A stretch of DNA of 35,858 bases. Origin: Nitrospirota bacterium (GTDB lineage Bacteria > Nitrospirota > Thermodesulfovibrionia > SZUA-242). The position numbers were made by a program, and so were the translations under genes. The stretch covers positions 1-35,858 of the forward strand of contig QJVM01000118.1 in assembly GCA_003235715.1 (NCBI GenBank), in the 5' to 3' direction. The notes under the pieces are model-generated. The model was not told where the DNA came from and did no database searches. It saw nothing but the letters and a program-made list of their open reading frames with translations. How positions within the stretch are numbered: position 1 is the first letter of the stretch; each line of letters starts with the position of its first letter. Of this stretch, positions 12,767 through 34,998 are shown one piece after another.

Positions 12767-12847
12767 CCCCGGATCCTCCTGGGATTGGGTAATCGGATAC
12801 GTTGCCGGACGCGTCCCTGGCTTGTTGCGCGGAGGAATCCGACCGGG

Positions 12848-12865
12848 CTCATGGCCCGCCATGAG
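12848..12865. promoter_or_regulatory. Perfect 18-base inverted repeat upstream of the ornithine cyclodeaminase gene
   Basis: CTCATGGC-CC-GCCATGAG is an 8-bp perfect inverted repeat with a two-base centre, 69 bases before the ATG at 12935. It lies in the otherwise featureless 168-base gap after the J-domain gene. It could be an operator or, as RNA, a leader hairpin. It does not resemble an ArgR box. Confidence 0.35.
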
Positions 12866-12934
12866 AGGCCTGCGCCGGTCATGTCGCGGGCCGGGCCATA
12901 TCGTACGTCCATCCCCTGGATTGGAGGTCCGTAC

Positions 12935-14155
12935 ATGTTCGTCGAAACCGTACTTCTTGAAGGCCACCTTCTGGACTCCCATACCCTTTCCAAGATTCTC
13001 GACCAAATTCTGCGGCAGGGCGGGCAGTACGAGCTCATGGAGCTGAGCGTGGGCCGCCGCCGTCAAGACCCGACACGGGCCAAGCTTTTCCTGAGGACCG
13101 ACACGCGCGAACGAATGAAAGATCTCGTGACCTATGTCCGGCAACAGGGGGGAGAAGTCGCGGAGCCCCGCGACGTAACGTTGAGCCCTGCGCCCGCAGA
13201 GGGCGTTTTTCCGGACGACTTCTATTCCACAACCAATCTCGAAACATGGGTCCAGGTCTCGGGTGAGGAGATACAGGTGGCCGGTGAAGCCATGGACCTG
13301 GGCATTCGCGTCAACCTGTCGAACCGGACCGCAGAATCCGTGCCCATGGACCAGGTCCGGAAGGGGGACCTGTACGTCTGTGGTTCGGACGGAATTCGCA
13401 TCGTCCCCCTTCTCAAATCCGCTGAGGCCCGGGCCCGGGAGGCTTTCGGTTTCATGCAGAGCGAGGTATCCGCAGAAAAGCCCCGCCTGCTGGCCATCCG
13501 GCAGGTCGCAGACGCTCTGAAGGAATGCCACGGAGGAGGAGGAAGAAACCTCCTCGTGCTCGGACCGGCCGTGGTCCACTCAGGCGCCGTGGCCTCGGTC
13601 AGCCGCATGCTGGAGACCGGAATCTTCCATCTCCTTTTTGGCGGCAATGCCGTCGCCGTCCACGATATCGAATGGGCCCTGTTCGGAACATCCCTGGGCG
13701 TCAATATTGAAACGGGCGAGCCCGTACCTGCCGGCCACCGTCATCATCTCCGCGCCATCAACACGGTGCGCGCCGCGGGCGGCATTCGGCAGGCGGTGGA
13801 AAAGGGAATCGTAACCCGGGGCATCATGTATACGGCCGTCCGGAAAAACGTGGATGTTCTGCTGGCCGGGTCGGTCCGGGATGACGGCCCCCTTCCCGAG
13901 GTGGTCACGGATATCCTGCAGGCCAAGAAGATGATGCGTTCCAGGCTGGCGGGCGTTGGCGTCGCCGTCATGGCGGCCACCGCTCTCCATGCCATCGCCA
14001 CGGGAAACATGCTCCCCGCCCGCGTCCGGACCTTCTGCGTGGACATCAACCCCGGCACCGTGGTCAAACTCATGGACCGGGGCTCCTCCCAGACGGTTCC
14101 CATTGTCATGGACTGCGAATCCTTCTTTCACGAACTGGTGGGTCATCTGACGTGA
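12935..14155 (+). CDS. Ornithine cyclodeaminase, TIGR00300 (LOR/SDH) family; AgrE C-terminal-half homolog
   Basis: A 406-residue member of the family once labelled LOR/SDH. An archaeal member and the C-terminal half of cyanobacterial AgrE are known to convert ornithine to proline plus ammonia using NAD. The N-terminal 100 residues (ETVLLEGHLLDSHTLSKIL) match the small leading domain. The C-terminal Rossmann-like part has LLFGGNAVAVHDIEWALFG, GHRHHLRAINTVRAAGG and LAGSVRDDGPLPEV. The ATG is fixed by GGAGGT seven bases upstream. Its stop overlaps the start of the arginine dihydrolase gene (GTGA), so the two are translationally coupled. PutA, which consumes proline, is encoded nearby on the other strand. 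The functional call rests on family and context. Confidence 0.85.
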   Translation: MFVETVLLEGHLLDSHTLSKILDQILRQGGQYELMELSVGRRRQDPTRAKLFLRTDTRERMKDLVTYVRQQGGEVAEPRDVTLSPAPAEGVFPDDFYSTTNLETWVQVSGEEIQVAGEAMDLGIRVNLSNRTAESVPMDQVRKGDLYVCGSDGIRIVPLLKSAEARAREAFGFMQSEVSAEKPRLLAIRQVADALKECHGGGGRNLLVLGPAVVHSGAVASVSRMLETGIFHLLFGGNAVAVHDIEWALFGTSLGVNIETGEPVPAGHRHHLRAINTVRAAGGIRQAVEKGIVTRGIMYTAVRKNVDVLLAGSVRDDGPLPEVVTDILQAKKMMRSRLAGVGVAVMAATALHAIATGNMLPARVRTFCVDINPGTVVKLMDRGSSQTVPIVMDCESFFHELVGHLT

Positions 14156-16485: not shown

Positions 16486-19443
16486 TCAGGCAATGATGTC
16501 CGGCGCAAAGCCCCTTCTCATCGTATTTTCCGTAACCACCCTGGGCTCCATAAACTGGACGAGGTAATCGAAGCCGCCCGCTTTGGACCCCACGCCCGAC
16601 ATCTTGAACCCACCAAAGGGCTGTCTCCCGACAATGGCTCCCGTGATGCCGCGGTTGATATAGAGGTTCCCCACCTCAAATTCCTCCCTGACCCTTCTGA
16701 CGTGGGAAGGATTCCGGGAGTAAAGTCCCCCGGTCAAGCCGTATTCGGAACTGTTGGCCAGGGCCAGACCTTCTTCCATGTTCCGTGCCTTGATAACCGA
16801 CAGCACCGGGCCGAAAATCTCGTCGCGCAGCACGCGCGAGGTCGGGGCCAGGTCCGTCACCACAACCGGCGGAACGTAGTAACCTTCCCGAGGCACCGTC
16901 CCTTCCACCACGATCCGTCCCTCGATGCGGGCCATGTCCCGGTAACTGGCTATCGTCCGCTGGGCCCTCTCATCGATGACCGGGCCTATCAGGAACGACG
17001 GGTCTTCAGGCGGACCCGCAGGCATTTCGGCCACGGTTTCCCTCAGCCGTTTCAGAAACCGGTCGTAACAGGACTCCACCACAATGACCCGGGAACAGGC
17101 TGAACATTTCTGGCCCTGATACCCGAAGGCCGACTGCTTCACCCCGATGACCGTCAGGTCAAGGTCCGCATCCCCGTCTACGAGGATAGCATTCTTTCCG
17201 CCCATCTCGGCCACAGCCCTCTTGACGCCCCTTTGGCCCCCCCGAACCCGTCCGCATTTTTCGACAATCCTCAACCCCACGTCCCGTGACCCGGTAAAGA
17301 GAACGAGGTCGGTCTCCGGATGTTCCACAAGAAAGTCGCCCACTTCAGGGCCCGAACCCGGGATGAAATTAAGGACCCCGTCCGGAACCCCGGCCTCTCG
17401 GAGAATCGAAAAGACGTGCCATCCGTTCACGGGGGACAGACTTGAAGGCTTGTACAGAACCGCATTTCCGGTCACGAGTGCCGCGGACACCATCCCCATG
17501 GAAATGGCCAGAGGGAAATTCCATGGCGCCAGGACCAGCGCCACCCCCCGGGGCCGGTAAGAGTAAACATTCTCCTCCCCGGAGCACTGCTCCATGGAAA
17601 AAGATCCGCCCAGGCGTTCCGCTTCGGCCGCATAGTAACAAAGGTAATCAATGGCCTCGGTCACGTCCCCGTCGGCCTCGGACCAGTTCTTCCCGACCTC
17701 CAGCACTTGCCAGGCCATGAGTTCGAACCGCCGGTGTCGGACCAGTTCAGCCGCCCGTCTGAGAATCCCGCTCCGTTCCCTGGGCGCCACCCGCCCCCAT
17801 TCCTTCTGGGCCTTGCGGGCTGCGGTCAGGGCCACTTCGGCCATGGCACGGTCGACACTGCTTACGGCCCCCACCGTCTCCGTCGGACGGGCCGGATTGA
17901 CGGACACGATCATCCCGCCACTCAGACTTTCCCGCCCATTGATCACCGAAGGGAAGTTCCGACCCAGCCCCCGCCTCGCTTCTTCAAGCGCCTCATGCCA
18001 CGCCGCGCGGTTTTCCTTACGGGACAGGTCCACGGGAGGTTCGTTTACGAAAACTCCCGGGGGCTCCACGACCGGAAGGTCCGTCTGAAGGGCCGGAGCC
18101 TCCGGCGGGGCCAGGAGCGAGATCGCGTCCAAACCCTCCACAAAGCGTCTCCGGATAAAGCCTTCGTTGGACGTGTTCTCCAGGAGTCGCCTGACGAGAT
18201 AGGCCATTCCGGGCAGAAGCTGGCCCACCGGGGCATATTCCCGCACGGCATAGCCCATACGTCCGAGTGCATTCTTGACCGGTTCCGCCATCCCGAAGAG
18301 CATCTGGAATTCACAGGCACGGCGATCGATCTCCCGCTCTTCCGCCATGACCATGAGGCTCGCTATGGAACGCACGTTATGGGTACCGGCCGCAAGGGTC
18401 ACCGAGTCTGCCGCGTCCAGCAGCTCTTCGGCGCACCGCTCGAAATTCCAGTCCGAATGGGTCTTGCTCGCAAAGACCGGAAGCGGCCATCCCTTCTGGC
18501 TGGCGACCACATTTTCATACTCCCAGTAGGCCCCTTTCACCAGGCGGACCGTGACGCGCGTTCCCCTCGTTCGGGCCCATTCCCTCAACCTCCCGATGTC
18601 GTCGAGCGTGTCCAGCAGATAGGCCTGCAGGGCGATCCCGGCCCCGTCCCAGGCCCTGAATTCCTCTTCGTCCAGGAGTTCCGTGAACACGTCCAGCGTG
18701 ATCTCTTTCAGGCTGTACATTTCCATGTCCAGGTTCACGAAGGCCCCGACGTCCCGCGCCTGCCTGAAGAGGGGCCGCAGTTTCTCCTTGAGCCTGTGGA
18801 CGCTGTCGGAGTAATTGAGCGGGCCGACCCGTGAATACAGAGAACTCAGCTTCACCGAAATGTTCACGCGGGGGAAATAACGCTCGTGCTCCGGGTCAAA
18901 CCCCTCCCATGGGCCAACTTCTTCCGTCAACCGGGACAACAGGGAAAGGTACTGGTCGCGGTAATCATCGGCCTCCACCTCGGACACCGCCGTCTCGCCC
19001 AGGAGGTCCACCGTGAAGGTTCTCCGGCTTTCCCAGATTCTTTTCAGCGTTTTCAAGGCACGGTCCGGCGTGTCCCCGGCAATGAGCATGCGGCCGAAGA
19101 TAAGAATGTCGCGGTGAAGAATGGCCGCCGTGAGCGGGGCCGCCAGAGGCGTGATGGCCGCGGCGACAAAGGAGCGGAACAGGCGGGGCAACGGGAGGCC
19201 TGATTTCAGAAAGTATTCCTCGATATGGCGGATCACCAGCTCGGTCGTCGTGAGGGAGGGGAACACGTCCAGGAACCGGAAGAGCTGAATCTTGAGGTCC
19301 CGGTTTCGCATCGCCATGTCCAGGACCCGCGCCGCCCACCAGGACCGGTTGAAAAGGGAGGGCGTTTCCTCTTCCATGAGACGGAAGATCTCCTGGCCCT
19401 TTTCAAACACCCGTGTTTCTCTGCGAAGGTCCCCGACGCCCAT
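16486..19443 (-). CDS. putA: Bifunctional proline dehydrogenase / delta-1-pyrroline-5-carboxylate dehydrogenase
   Basis: Oxidises proline to glutamate in two channelled steps, passing electrons to quinone through FAD and then to NAD. From ATG 19443 it has 985 residues, matching the short PutA type that lacks the N-terminal ribbon-helix-helix repressor domain. The proline dehydrogenase barrel has RLVKGAYWEYE near 300 and YAPVGQLLPGMAYLVRRLLEN near 402-423. The aldehyde dehydrogenase half has APWNFPLAI, FTGSRDVG, the general base Glu746 in EMGGKNA and the nucleophile Cys780 in GQKCSACSR. The frame extends to a TTG at 19521, but without a ribosome site. A terminator separates it from ychF. With 12935-14958 it completes arginine-to-glutamate catabolism. 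Confidence 0.96.
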   Translation of the reverse strand: MGVGDLRRETRVFEKGQEIFRLMEEETPSLFNRSWWAARVLDMAMRNRDLKIQLFRFLDVFPSLTTTELVIRHIEEYFLKSGLPLPRLFRSFVAAAITPLAAPLTAAILHRDILIFGRMLIAGDTPDRALKTLKRIWESRRTFTVDLLGETAVSEVEADDYRDQYLSLLSRLTEEVGPWEGFDPEHERYFPRVNISVKLSSLYSRVGPLNYSDSVHRLKEKLRPLFRQARDVGAFVNLDMEMYSLKEITLDVFTELLDEEEFRAWDGAGIALQAYLLDTLDDIGRLREWARTRGTRVTVRLVKGAYWEYENVVASQKGWPLPVFASKTHSDWNFERCAEELLDAADSVTLAAGTHNVRSIASLMVMAEEREIDRRACEFQMLFGMAEPVKNALGRMGYAVREYAPVGQLLPGMAYLVRRLLENTSNEGFIRRRFVEGLDAISLLAPPEAPALQTDLPVVEPPGVFVNEPPVDLSRKENRAAWHEALEEARRGLGRNFPSVINGRESLSGGMIVSVNPARPTETVGAVSSVDRAMAEVALTAARKAQKEWGRVAPRERSGILRRAAELVRHRRFELMAWQVLEVGKNWSEADGDVTEAIDYLCYYAAEAERLGGSFSMEQCSGEENVYSYRPRGVALVLAPWNFPLAISMGMVSAALVTGNAVLYKPSSLSPVNGWHVFSILREAGVPDGVLNFIPGSGPEVGDFLVEHPETDLVLFTGSRDVGLRIVEKCGRVRGGQRGVKRAVAEMGGKNAILVDGDADLDLTVIGVKQSAFGYQGQKCSACSRVIVVESCYDRFLKRLRETVAEMPAGPPEDPSFLIGPVIDERAQRTIASYRDMARIEGRIVVEGTVPREGYYVPPVVVTDLAPTSRVLRDEIFGPVLSVIKARNMEEGLALANSSEYGLTGGLYSRNPSHVRRVREEFEVGNLYINRGITGAIVGRQPFGGFKMSGVGSKAGGFDYLVQFMEPRVVTENTMRRGFAPDIIA

Positions 19444-19565
19444 GTTCTGGTTTCCGGATAAATGGATGGTGTCTGCGTTTCTGTACGACGCGTCTGAAGA
19501 CGTCCCGGAATACGGGGACAATCCCGATTAGACCATATCACATTTCAGTCCGGGGTGCAGTTGGG

Positions 19566-31601: not shown

Positions 31602-32696
31602 ATGAATAAGGACGAGACCTACATGAACCTCGCCCTCGAACTGGCACGGAAGGCTTCGGGGCGGACGAGTCCGAACCCCCTGGTCGGCGCTGTCCTGGTC
31701 CGTCAGGGCCGCGTCCTTGCCGAGGGCTTTCATCGGAAGGCCGGTACGGCTCACGCCGAGGCCGTGGCCCTTCGCCGGGCGGGTCCTCAGGCTCGCGGGG
31801 CCACCCTTTACGTCACGCTGGAACCGTGCTGCCATACCGAGAAGCGCACGCCGCCCTGCGCGCAGGCGGTCATCCGGGCCGGCGTGAAGCGCGTGGTGGT
31901 GGCGATGAAGGATCCCAATCCCAAGGTATCGGGCCGCGGTCTCCGCATGCTGAAAGAGGCCGGGGTCGAGGTCCGGAGCGGCGTGCTGGCCGAAGAAGCC
32001 CGCCTCATGAACCGGTGGTTCATTCATTACATGAAGACCGGCCGACCCTATGTCACCCTGAAGGTGGCCCAGACCGTTGACGGCCGAATCGCTACGGCGT
32101 CGGGTGAATCCAAGTGGATCACCGGGCCATCCGCGCGGAGGGCCGGACATCGTCTCCGTGCCGAATCGGACGCGATCATGGTGGGCATCGGCACGGTCCG
32201 GGCGGACGACCCCTCGCTGACCTGCCGTATCTCCGGGGGAAGGAATCCTGTCCGTATCATCGTGGATGGCCGTCTGGAGATCCGGCCTGAGGCACGGGTT
32301 CTGGATACCCGGGAGGCCGCCACGTGGATCGCCACCTGCGTCCCCGAGGATCATCCGGCCCGGGCGGCCCTCGAGGCCCGCGGAGCCGAGGTGATTCACG
32401 TTCCCGGCAGGAACGGAAAGCTGGATCTTCAGTCGCTCATGAATACGCTTGGACAAAGACAGATCACGTCGCTTCTTCTGGAAGGTGGCTCGTCCCTCAA
32501 TGCCGCGTGCCTCGCCGCCGGCGTGGTTCAGAGGGCCGTCTTCTTCATCGCGCCGAAGATCCTCGGAGGCCGAAATGGGCTCCCGTCCGTCGGCGGACCT
32601 GACCCGTTGAAACTGGAGGAAGCCATCCCGCTCAAGTCCACCCGGCTTTCCCGGGTCGGCCGGGACCTTGTCATCGAGGCGGATCTCGATCCGTAA
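31602..32696 (+). CDS. ribD: Bifunctional riboflavin biosynthesis deaminase/reductase
   Basis: Carries out the deamination and NADPH-dependent reduction steps that follow GTP cyclohydrolase II. The 364-residue product has an N-terminal deaminase with HAEAVAL and EPCCHTEKRTPPC (zinc ligands, about 53-90), and a C-terminal DHFR-like reductase with LKVAQTVDGRIA, SKWITG and LLLEGGSSLNA. The ATG at 31602 is preceded by AGGAAG; an ATG seven codons in is possible. The preceding terminator and a TAGAAT box at 31566-31571 suggest a separate promoter. No FMN riboswitch is visible in the 79-base leader, and the other rib genes are not adjacent. It is convergent with the hisA-type gene. Confidence 0.95.
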   Translation: MNKDETYMNLALELARKASGRTSPNPLVGAVLVRQGRVLAEGFHRKAGTAHAEAVALRRAGPQARGATLYVTLEPCCHTEKRTPPCAQAVIRAGVKRVVVAMKDPNPKVSGRGLRMLKEAGVEVRSGVLAEEARLMNRWFIHYMKTGRPYVTLKVAQTVDGRIATASGESKWITGPSARRAGHRLRAESDAIMVGIGTVRADDPSLTCRISGGRNPVRIIVDGRLEIRPEARVLDTREAATWIATCVPEDHPARAALEARGAEVIHVPGRNGKLDLQSLMNTLGQRQITSLLLEGGSSLNAACLAAGVVQRAVFFIAPKILGGRNGLPSVGGPDPLKLEEAIPLKSTRLSRVGRDLVIEADLDP

Positions 32697-32815: not shown

Positions 32816-33586
32816 TCAGGGCGGGTCCTCGCCGAAGAGCCGGACCATGTCCTCGTACTTCACCCCCTGCCCTCCGAACAGGTCCAGGGCACTCCCCACC
32901 GTAAAGTCGAGCCGGTTCTCCGAGAGGCGTCCGATCCGTTCGATATCTTCCATGGAGGCAATGCCGCCGGCATACGTGGTCGGCCGGGGCGAATGCCGGC
33001 CCAGCAGCATGACCAGCTCGCTTTCGATCCCTGCGCATTTTCCTTCGACGTCCACCCCGTGAACCAGGAATTCCGAACAGCTGCGGCCCAGCCGTTCCAG
33101 GGTCTCCGCGGAAACCGCCACGTCCGTAAACTTCTGCCACCGGTCCGTCACGATGTAATAGGTCCCTTCCTTCTTCCGGCAGCTGAGATCCAGAACAAGG
33201 CGACCCTTTCCGACCGCACGGACCAGCCCGGCCAGGCGGGTTTCATCGACCCGTCCGTCCCGGAACACAAACGAGGTCACGATGACCTTCTCGGCTCCTG
33301 CATCGAGCCACGTTCCGGCGTTGCGGTCATCCAGACCCCCGCCGATCTGAAGCCCTCCCGGGTAGGCCGCAAGGGCCTCTCTGGCCGCCGCGTCATTGCC
33401 CGGGCCAAGCTTGATCACGTGGCCTCCCCTCAGGCCATCCTTTCGGTAGAGGGACGCGTAATAGGAAGAGGGGCGGGTAGAGGCGAAGTTGGTCTTCAGG
33501 TCTTCCGGCTCTCCGTCATTGAGCGAGCCTCCCACAATCTGTTTCACCGTACCGCTGTGGATGTCGATGCAGGGTCTGAATCTCAT
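32816..33586 (-). CDS. hisA: Eukaryotic-type HisA (ProFAR isomerase, TIGR02129-like)
   Basis: Isomerises ProFAR to PRFAR in histidine synthesis. The 256-residue product resembles yeast His6 rather than ordinary bacterial HisA. It begins FRPCIDIHSGTVKQIVGG with the first catalytic Asp. It then has PSSYYASLY, GHVIKLGPGNDAAAREAL, LQIGGGL, VIVTSFVF, LVLDLSCRKKEGTYYIVTD (second catalytic Asp), VHGVDVEGKCAGI, TYAGGI and FTVGSALDLFGG. Each aligns with His6 motifs I know. The ATG at 33586 is chosen because the conserved N-terminus begins there; the open frame extends further with no homology. It lies 32 bases after the aspartase/fumarase gene, so is probably co-transcribed. No other his gene is in the window. 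Confidence 0.9.
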   Translation of the reverse strand: MRFRPCIDIHSGTVKQIVGGSLNDGEPEDLKTNFASTRPSSYYASLYRKDGLRGGHVIKLGPGNDAAAREALAAYPGGLQIGGGLDDRNAGTWLDAGAEKVIVTSFVFRDGRVDETRLAGLVRAVGKGRLVLDLSCRKKEGTYYIVTDRWQKFTDVAVSAETLERLGRSCSEFLVHGVDVEGKCAGIESELVMLLGRHSPRPTTYAGGIASMEDIERIGRLSENRLDFTVGSALDLFGGQGVKYEDMVRLFGEDPP

Positions 33587-33618: not shown

Positions 33619-34998
33619 TTAGACCATCCTCCCGGGATCCAGAAGCTGTCCCGCTTCGGCTTCGGAGAGCACGCCCTCCGAAATCGCCACCTCCCGGATG
33701 GTCCGGCCCGAGGCGTAGGCCTTCTTGGCAATCTCGGCGGCCCGCTGGTAGCCGATGATCGGGTTCAGGGCCGTGGCTGTGGCCAGGCTCTGGTCCACCC
33801 ATCGCCGGCAGGCGCTGCGGTCGGCCTTAATCCCCCGCAGACATTTCTCTTCAAAGACGCGGACCCCGTTTCCGAGGATCCCGATGGACGCGAGCAGGTT
33901 GTGGGCGATGACCGGCATCATGACATTCAATTCCAGCTGGCCGGCGGCCACGGCATGGCAGACCGCCGTGTCATTGCCTATCACCTGGAAGCAGACCATG
34001 TTCATCATCTCCGCCATCACCGGATTGACCTTCCCCGGCATGATGGACGACCCCGGCTGGACCGCCGGGAGCTGAATTTCGGCCAGCCCCGTCCTCGGGC
34101 CCGAGGCCAGCAGGCGGAGGTCGTTGGCCACGCGGGACACGGTAACGGCAAGCCCCCTCAGACCGGCCGAAAGCTCCAGCGCCCCCGTAACGTTCTGAAT
34201 CCCTTCAAACGTGTTGGACGTGGGCCGAAACCGTATCCCGGAAATCCTCGCCACCTCTCGCACCACTTCCGTCTTGTAGCGCGGAGGCGTGTTGATCCCT
34301 GTGCCGACGGCATTGCCGCCCAGCGGAAGTTCGAGCAGGCTCTTCATGGCCTGTTCGATGCGTTCCTGTTCGCGCTTGAAGGCTGAGGCGTATCCCGAGA
34401 ACTCCTGGCCCAGGCGCATGGGAACCGCATCCTGCAGATGGGTACGGCCTGATTTCACGCAGGGCATGAAGGCCTTCGCCTTGCGCTCAAGGGTTTTCCG
34501 GGCCGCTGACAGCGGGGGAAGGAGATCATGTTTGACCGTCTCCCAGGCCGCGATGTGAATGGCGCTGGGAATGGTGTCATTGGTGGACTGACCCAGGTTC
34601 ACGTGATCGTTCGGATGGCAGAAGGCGTAACGGCCCCTCCGGCCGCCGAGGATTTCATTGGCACGGTTCGCGATCACTTCGTTGGCGTTCATGTTCTGGG
34701 ACGTACCCGCCCCCGCCTGAAAGACATCGACGACGAACTGCTCGTCGTGAACCCCGGCCATCACTTCCTCGGAGGCTTTCTCGATGGCCCTGCCCCTCCG
34801 ACGATCCAGCAAGCCAAGCCTCTGGTTCACCCGGGCCGCGGCCAGCTTGATCAGGCCCTGCGCACGGATGAATCGACGCGGAAGACGGTGCCCGCTTACC
34901 CGAAAGTTCTCCACGGCCCTCTGGGTCTGGGCACCGTAAAGTGCCTTTACCGGAACGTTTACCGAACCCAGTGTATCCTTCTCGACCCTGTATTTCAT
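33619..34998 (-). CDS. Class II fumarase / aspartate ammonia-lyase family enzyme
   Basis: A 459-residue homotetrameric lyase that reversibly eliminates water from malate or ammonia from aspartate, giving fumarate. Signatures are GTSQNMNANEVIANRA near 98, HPNDHVNLGQSTND near 128-141, SGRTHLQDAVP with the catalytic His187, and the superfamily loop GSSIMPGKVNP at 316-326. The segment NMVCFQVIGNDTAV...AGQLELNVMMPVI and QSTND favour aspartase, whereas MPGKVNP and the C-terminal ALNPIIGY region are as in FumC. Aspartase is slightly preferred. Assignment needs assay or phylogeny. It heads a two-gene unit with hisA and is divergent from the sigma-54 activator gene. Confidence 0.82.
   Translation of the reverse strand: MKYRVEKDTLGSVNVPVKALYGAQTQRAVENFRVSGHRLPRRFIRAQGLIKLAAARVNQRLGLLDRRRGRAIEKASEEVMAGVHDEQFVVDVFQAGAGTSQNMNANEVIANRANEILGGRRGRYAFCHPNDHVNLGQSTNDTIPSAIHIAAWETVKHDLLPPLSAARKTLERKAKAFMPCVKSGRTHLQDAVPMRLGQEFSGYASAFKREQERIEQAMKSLLELPLGGNAVGTGINTPPRYKTEVVREVARISGIRFRPTSNTFEGIQNVTGALELSAGLRGLAVTVSRVANDLRLLASGPRTGLAEIQLPAVQPGSSIMPGKVNPVMAEMMNMVCFQVIGNDTAVCHAVAAGQLELNVMMPVIAHNLLASIGILGNGVRVFEEKCLRGIKADRSACRRWVDQSLATATALNPIIGYQRAAEIAKKAYASGRTIREVAISEGVLSEAEAGQLLDPGRMV

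Follow-up and report, generated by a model that had tools for sequence, protein, structure and literature searches.

Contig QJVM01000118.1 of a Nitrospirota bacterium (the window, by which we mean the whole stretch of 35,858 nucleotides that was analyzed) contains a gene for a HisA protein that resembles the yeast enzyme His6. The locus thus raises the question of how a seemingly eukaryotic enzyme of histidine synthesis came to reside in a bacterium, and whether it serves there as HisA. The features discussed below are the following.

32816..33586, minus strand: hisA of the TIGR02129 type, predicted ProFAR isomerase of 256 amino acids; ATG at 33586, TGA at 32816-32818; family model over cut-off
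33619..34998, minus strand: gene of the aspartate ammonia-lyase/fumarase family, 32 bp upstream of hisA
31602..32696, plus strand: ribD, convergent with hisA; context only, outside the system
L089:2964-4559 (contig 3 of the same genome, G000): HIS7-type HisH-HisF fusion, 531 amino acids from the likelier internal start

The reading frame of hisA runs over 256 codons without a stop, and its translated product begins MRFRPCIDIHSGTVKQIVGG. The protein scores 355.8 bits against the NCBIfam model TIGR02129 (hisA_euk; cut-off 229.3) and covers positions 2-252 of the 255 in the profile; this agrees with the family assignment that had been made in a sequence-only reading of the window. The same reading had listed yeast His6-like motifs, among them PSSYYASLY, LDLSCRKKEG, DVEGKCAGI and GSALDLFGG, and all five of its motifs are present. 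With the model for standard HisA (TIGR00007, NCBIfam) the score is 56.2 bits, which misses the cut-off of 228.95, and with the TIM-barrel superfamily model PF00977 it is 82 bits. The motifs of the TIGR02129 family sit around strands 1, 5 and 6 and in the C-terminal GSALD(I/L)FGG. Depending on the motif, 69-102 of 102 bacterial members contain the pattern, as do both eukaryotic members (plant and yeast), against none of six standard HisA proteins. The gene is real and correctly described, and it joins a known family that is under-appreciated in bacteria.

The fold agrees with this assignment. An AlphaFold model, built with 25 homologues, reached a pLDDT of 90.6, and its best matches in the PDB are HISN3 of Medicago truncatula (9fcf and 9fcg, TMq 0.92-0.94) and His6 of Saccharomyces cerevisiae (2agk, TMq 0.83); no standard HisA or HisF comes close to either fit. 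HISN3 shares the motifs and 60% identity over the full length with the window protein, which in contrast is bacterial. His6 belongs to the same family (48% identity), but it groups with proteins from Verrucomicrobiota (56% identity) and not with the window or plant protein. Standard HisA is of the same TIM-barrel superfamily, keeps the aspartate of strand 1 and is expected to catalyze the same reaction; however, it is only 17-26% identical and never occurs alongside TIGR02129 among 46 carriers.

The aspartate of strand 1 is conserved in the window protein as Asp8, which in the alignment matches Asp57 of HISN3, the residue that was changed to Asn in the crystals with bound ProFAR and PrFAR. An Asn at the base of strand 1 in the plant protein was considered as an active-site difference and dropped, because the PDB entry is the D57N mutant; the difference between the solved plant protein and the window protein at this site is therefore man-made. 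In an alignment with HisA from Campylobacter (4gj1) the standard Asp of strand 5 falls on Ser135 of the window protein, two residues after an invariant Asp133, and the standard Asp of strand 6 falls on the invariant Glu181; a separate multiple alignment moves strand 5 by one position, so that the place of the second catalytic acid is tentative.

As the sequence-only reading had described, hisA adjoins a lyase gene on the same strand and not a his operon; no further his gene was found in its immediate neighbourhood. Against PRK12273, a subfamily model for aspartate ammonia-lyase with a cut-off of 510, the lyase scores 614 bits; it falls under the equivalog cut-offs of both fumC and aspA. The two genes probably share a transcript; a promoter scan around the pair found nothing above chance. 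Two relatives of the window genome at the family level, G001 (hisA locus L011) and G002 (L009), were compared. The pair recurs in G002, with a lyase that is 72.8% identical and a gap of about 45 bp. The lyase is absent from beside hisA in G001, which has the order hisA-ribD-HU in common with the window. The ancestral order lyase, hisA, ribD, HU probably predates the three genera, and the neighbour order that members of the family have in common suggests that hisA was acquired before the family diverged. Some 50 loci from Desulfobulbia have a conserved order of their own, in which an EF-G-like gene and an ATPase come before hisA, with HDOD and MBL-like genes after it; all these names were read from the sequences without family models. 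Neither hisH nor hisF was found near hisA_euk in the loci examined (L009-L088).

The possibility that the window is a eukaryotic contaminant contig was ruled out; it carries the ordinary bacterial genes htpG, glgA, RNase PH, tilS, HU and ribD, and its neighbours recur in the relatives. Two other genes of the window were recorded. The product of one (12785-14155, plus strand) scores 462 bits against TIGR00300 (cut-off 411), the model of an ornithine cyclodeaminase of the nickel-pincer-nucleotide type. The other (16486-19521, minus strand) encodes a PutA-like protein of 1011 amino acids with proline dehydrogenase and glutamate-semialdehyde dehydrogenase regions, which are under both curated cut-offs.

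The window is contig 48 of an assembly of 3.24 Mb. Protein and family searches of this assembly for a second hisA returned only HisHF, IMPDH-like proteins and other barrels with low scores. The search for a second, standard hisA, which had been proposed as a check, thus found none; the assembly is 95.8% complete, so that this absence leans partly on the pattern across the 46 carriers. Among 80 genomes chosen across groups, a standard hisA is present in none of the 46 with TIGR02129, as opposed to 31 of the 34 without it (30 over the cut-off and one at 219.9 bits). The Fisher test gives p 4e-19, a value that overstates the evidence because the genomes are related. The mutual exclusion of the two types is seen in three phyla, which is the pattern predicted by orthologous displacement. 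Relatives of the window genome in the same class keep a standard HisA, often adjoining HisF.

Several genomes show additional frames. Two hisA_euk genomes also have a divergent HisA-like frame of 243 amino acids (G330:C114:43966-44664 and G291:C154:79137-79835); these frames score 89-96 bits over the full profile of TIGR00007 and are distinct from the HisF matches of the same genomes. A tandem pair of hisA_euk with identical scores occurs in the Verrucomicrobiota sample (G671:C42:48040-50726) and may be a duplication or an assembly artefact. Two copies of hisA_euk are also found in G272.

How common is this type of HisA in bacteria? When 84,980 species genomes were scanned with a sequence pattern, at least 463 stretches that encode TIGR02129 proteins were identified. 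In even samples, 104 of 241 Verrucomicrobiota and 23 of 247 Desulfobacterota have a member above the cut-off. The view of the sequence-only reading that a eukaryotic-type HisA is unusual for a bacterium is not borne out by these numbers. TIGR02129 is a normal, widespread bacterial family, and the label "eukaryotic-type" is a misnomer. This label misleads annotation, since what carries it is a second HisA that excludes the standard one and serves a large share of Verrucomicrobiota as well as Desulfobulbia. Within the phylum of the window only 3 of 197 genomes are above the cut-off, and these are exactly the window's own family. Such a distribution indicates that the gene was acquired in this corner of Nitrospirota; the earlier suggestion of a transferred gene is to this extent probably correct. 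Short contigs with hisA_euk also occur in MAGs labeled as Rokubacteria (L034) and Gammaproteobacteria (L066), which could be mis-binned.

The phylogenetic relationship of the HisA proteins was analyzed over 250 columns with six or three standard HisA proteins as outgroup. The window protein and its two family relatives form a clade (support of 95 in the quick tree and 100/95 in the careful tree). It is separated from standard HisA by a split with a support of 100/100, and hence falls outside ordinary bacterial HisA, the position that had been named as the critical check. The nearest other rows are from Desulfobacterota, near Desulfobulbia; the backbone supports are mostly low and do not fix the donor branch. 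The nearest rows are bacterial in all trees, and there is no nesting in the two available eukaryotic sequences. Plant and yeast HisA were also used to scan viral contigs, which gave no matches, so that the eukaryotic side consists of these two proteins. The identity of the window protein is 65-70% to bacterial homologues, 59.5% to the plant and 48.2% to the yeast protein.

The two eukaryotic proteins do not behave as a unit in these trees. Yeast His6 is placed in a Verrucomicrobiota group (96/87, and 97/83 in a tree without outgroup), while plant HISN3 is found elsewhere. A constraint that joins plant and yeast lowers the log-likelihood by 46 units with the outgroup (AU p 1.1e-4) and by 56 units without it (AU p 0.037), and their clade is present in 0% of 200 bootstrap trees. 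A single clade of all bacteria is marginally rejected (p 0.043). Plant and yeast are 46% identical to each other, whereas yeast reaches at most 56% with Verrucomicrobiota and the plant at most 61% with bacteria. Plant HISN3 and yeast His6 seem to have branched off independently from a bacterial TIGR02129 family, as judged from trees in which each kingdom has one sequence, the yeast branch is long, the bootstrap is unsettled and the Verrucomicrobiota rows are biased to high-scoring members. The idea that the window gene is what remains of a bacterial source from which the eukaryotic enzyme arose loosely fits at the level of the family, in that the eukaryotes nest in a bacterial radiation. The window lineage itself lacks support as the donor: a clade with the plant alone is compatible with the data without being favoured (p = 0.17), and one with plant and yeast is rejected (p = 4e-5).

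The genes of the pathway are scattered in the window genome, with hisA on contig 48, a HisH-HisF fusion on contig 3 and hisD on contig 98. The fusion gene probably starts at an internal Met, residue 36 of the listed reading frame, which gives 531 amino acids; depending on the start, the frame measures 531-566 amino acids. Its HisH and HisF parts score 196 and 322 bits, both over the cut-off. It matches yeast HIS7 (1jvn) end to end with 598 bits, whereas no single HisF exceeds 190, and unites full-length HisH and HisF in one polypeptide with the characteristic insertions of HIS7; it is therefore of the HIS7 type. Its gene lies away from hisA. In the same phylum the fusion is also present in G001 and G462. 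About 45 of the 247 Desulfobacterota genomes have it, not counting three genomes in which the two genes are separate neighbours and two that have the HisF part only. No fusion of the eukaryotic type was detected in the 241 Verrucomicrobiota, which gave eight weak matches, mostly adjacent separate genes. Fani et al. (2007, PMC1963479) had described HisHF fusions in two delta-proteobacteria and proposed a transfer from plants. In our HisHF tree, which contains a single long yeast branch, the bacteria as one clade have p 0.22, and no direction of transfer is favoured.

We consider it highly probable that the window gene encodes a working HisA of a mainly bacterial family, which was acquired horizontally by an ancestor of this small Nitrospirota family, and that the standard hisA was lost. 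TIGR02129 would then be a HisA family of bacteria that also reached plants and fungi. The donor was probably Desulfobulbia-like, and the recipient, subsequently without standard hisA, would be a case of orthologous displacement. As far as sequence can tell, the most likely role of the protein is that of an ordinary ProFAR isomerase. It would open the ribose ring of ProFAR to form PRFAR in step four of histidine synthesis, and PRFAR would be passed to IGP synthase, in this genome presumably the HIS7-type fusion encoded elsewhere. A different job for the protein, e.g. one tied to the aspartase-like lyase, with histidine made by other means, could be suspected from its location next to the lyase gene instead of his genes and from the second active-site acid, which is at another alignment position than in standard HisA. 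This is most improbable given that the protein is the sole HisA candidate in a genome with hisHF and hisD and that standard hisA is excluded in 46 of 46 carriers. Furthermore, the family members from yeast and plants are genuine ProFAR isomerases, and Medicago HISN3 has been crystallized with ProFAR and PrFAR.

An entry of hisA from an alga, plant or fungus, which the sequence-only reading had entertained, would agree with the plant and yeast origin of the closest solved structures, with the move from plants to delta-proteobacteria argued for hisHF and with the p of 0.17 for a clade of window family and plant. However, bacterial homologues are closer in identity than either eukaryotic protein, the three Nitrospirota proteins cluster with bacteria as their nearest rows, and the family occurs widely in Verrucomicrobiota and in Desulfobulbia, in the latter with a conserved neighbourhood. 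This bacterial grouping makes a transfer from a eukaryote very unlikely. It is also unlikely that TIGR02129 HisA and the HisHF fusion are adapted to each other and can be passed on only as a pair. Both are found in the window genome, in G001 and in fungi and plants, and 16 of the 23 hisA_euk carriers among Desulfobacterota have the fusion, compared with about 29 of the 224 others (odds ratio 15, p 1e-8), an association that is confounded by shared ancestry. On the other hand, the two genes are unlinked in the genomes seen, and the 104 carriers among Verrucomicrobiota lack a eukaryotic-type fusion. In addition, G002 combines hisA_euk with a separate standard HisF, while G462 combines the fusion with a standard HisA, as do 14 of the 15 Desulfobacterota genomes that were tested. 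The two traits coincide in part, but neither requires the other.

With the preferred reading of a bacterial family that was passed on horizontally, the surprise of the first reading is largely gone; the enzyme called "eukaryotic" seems to have originated in bacteria, and plants and fungi may have received it in separate events. We tentatively suggest, as a scenario with somewhat less than even chances, that plants and fungi drew their HisA from different sources, His6 from a Verrucomicrobiota-like one and HISN3 from another branch, and that the pair of HisA and HisHF was already present in bacteria, among them Desulfobulbia and this Nitrospirota family, and not an invention of eukaryotes that bacteria later received, as had been proposed for hisHF in 2007. 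If the HisA of plants and that of fungi indeed stem from different bacteria, eukaryotes have assembled their histidine pathway from separate bacterial imports. Such a mosaic origin would be in line with plant HISN2, which is reported to be closest to Deltaproteobacteria (PMC8102479). Separate imports, if true, would also reopen the case of hisHF, for which a move from plants to delta-proteobacteria has been published (PMC1963479).

Some further his-like genes were observed. In the stretch L250 of the window genome (contig 98, 20000-29457), hisD is located downstream of hemC and a HemA-like frame, outside a his operon. A fusion of 454 amino acids in a genome of the Verrucomicrobiota sample (G686, L244:1504-2865) has only 45%/34% identity to the eukaryotic type and apparently arose independently from ordinary hisH and hisF. 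Two HisF proteins (G127:C6:149730-150620 and G164:C28:13001-13906), in frames of about 310-330 amino acids that apparently lack HisH, are 56% identical to the HisF part of the eukaryotic-type fusion and may represent an intermediate or a split. Finally, G001 has on its contig 3 a second HisF/HisH-like pair (L251:4780-6173), which is of the AglZ/HisF2 type by model and sits in an apparent gene cluster for surface polysaccharide, not histidine synthesis.
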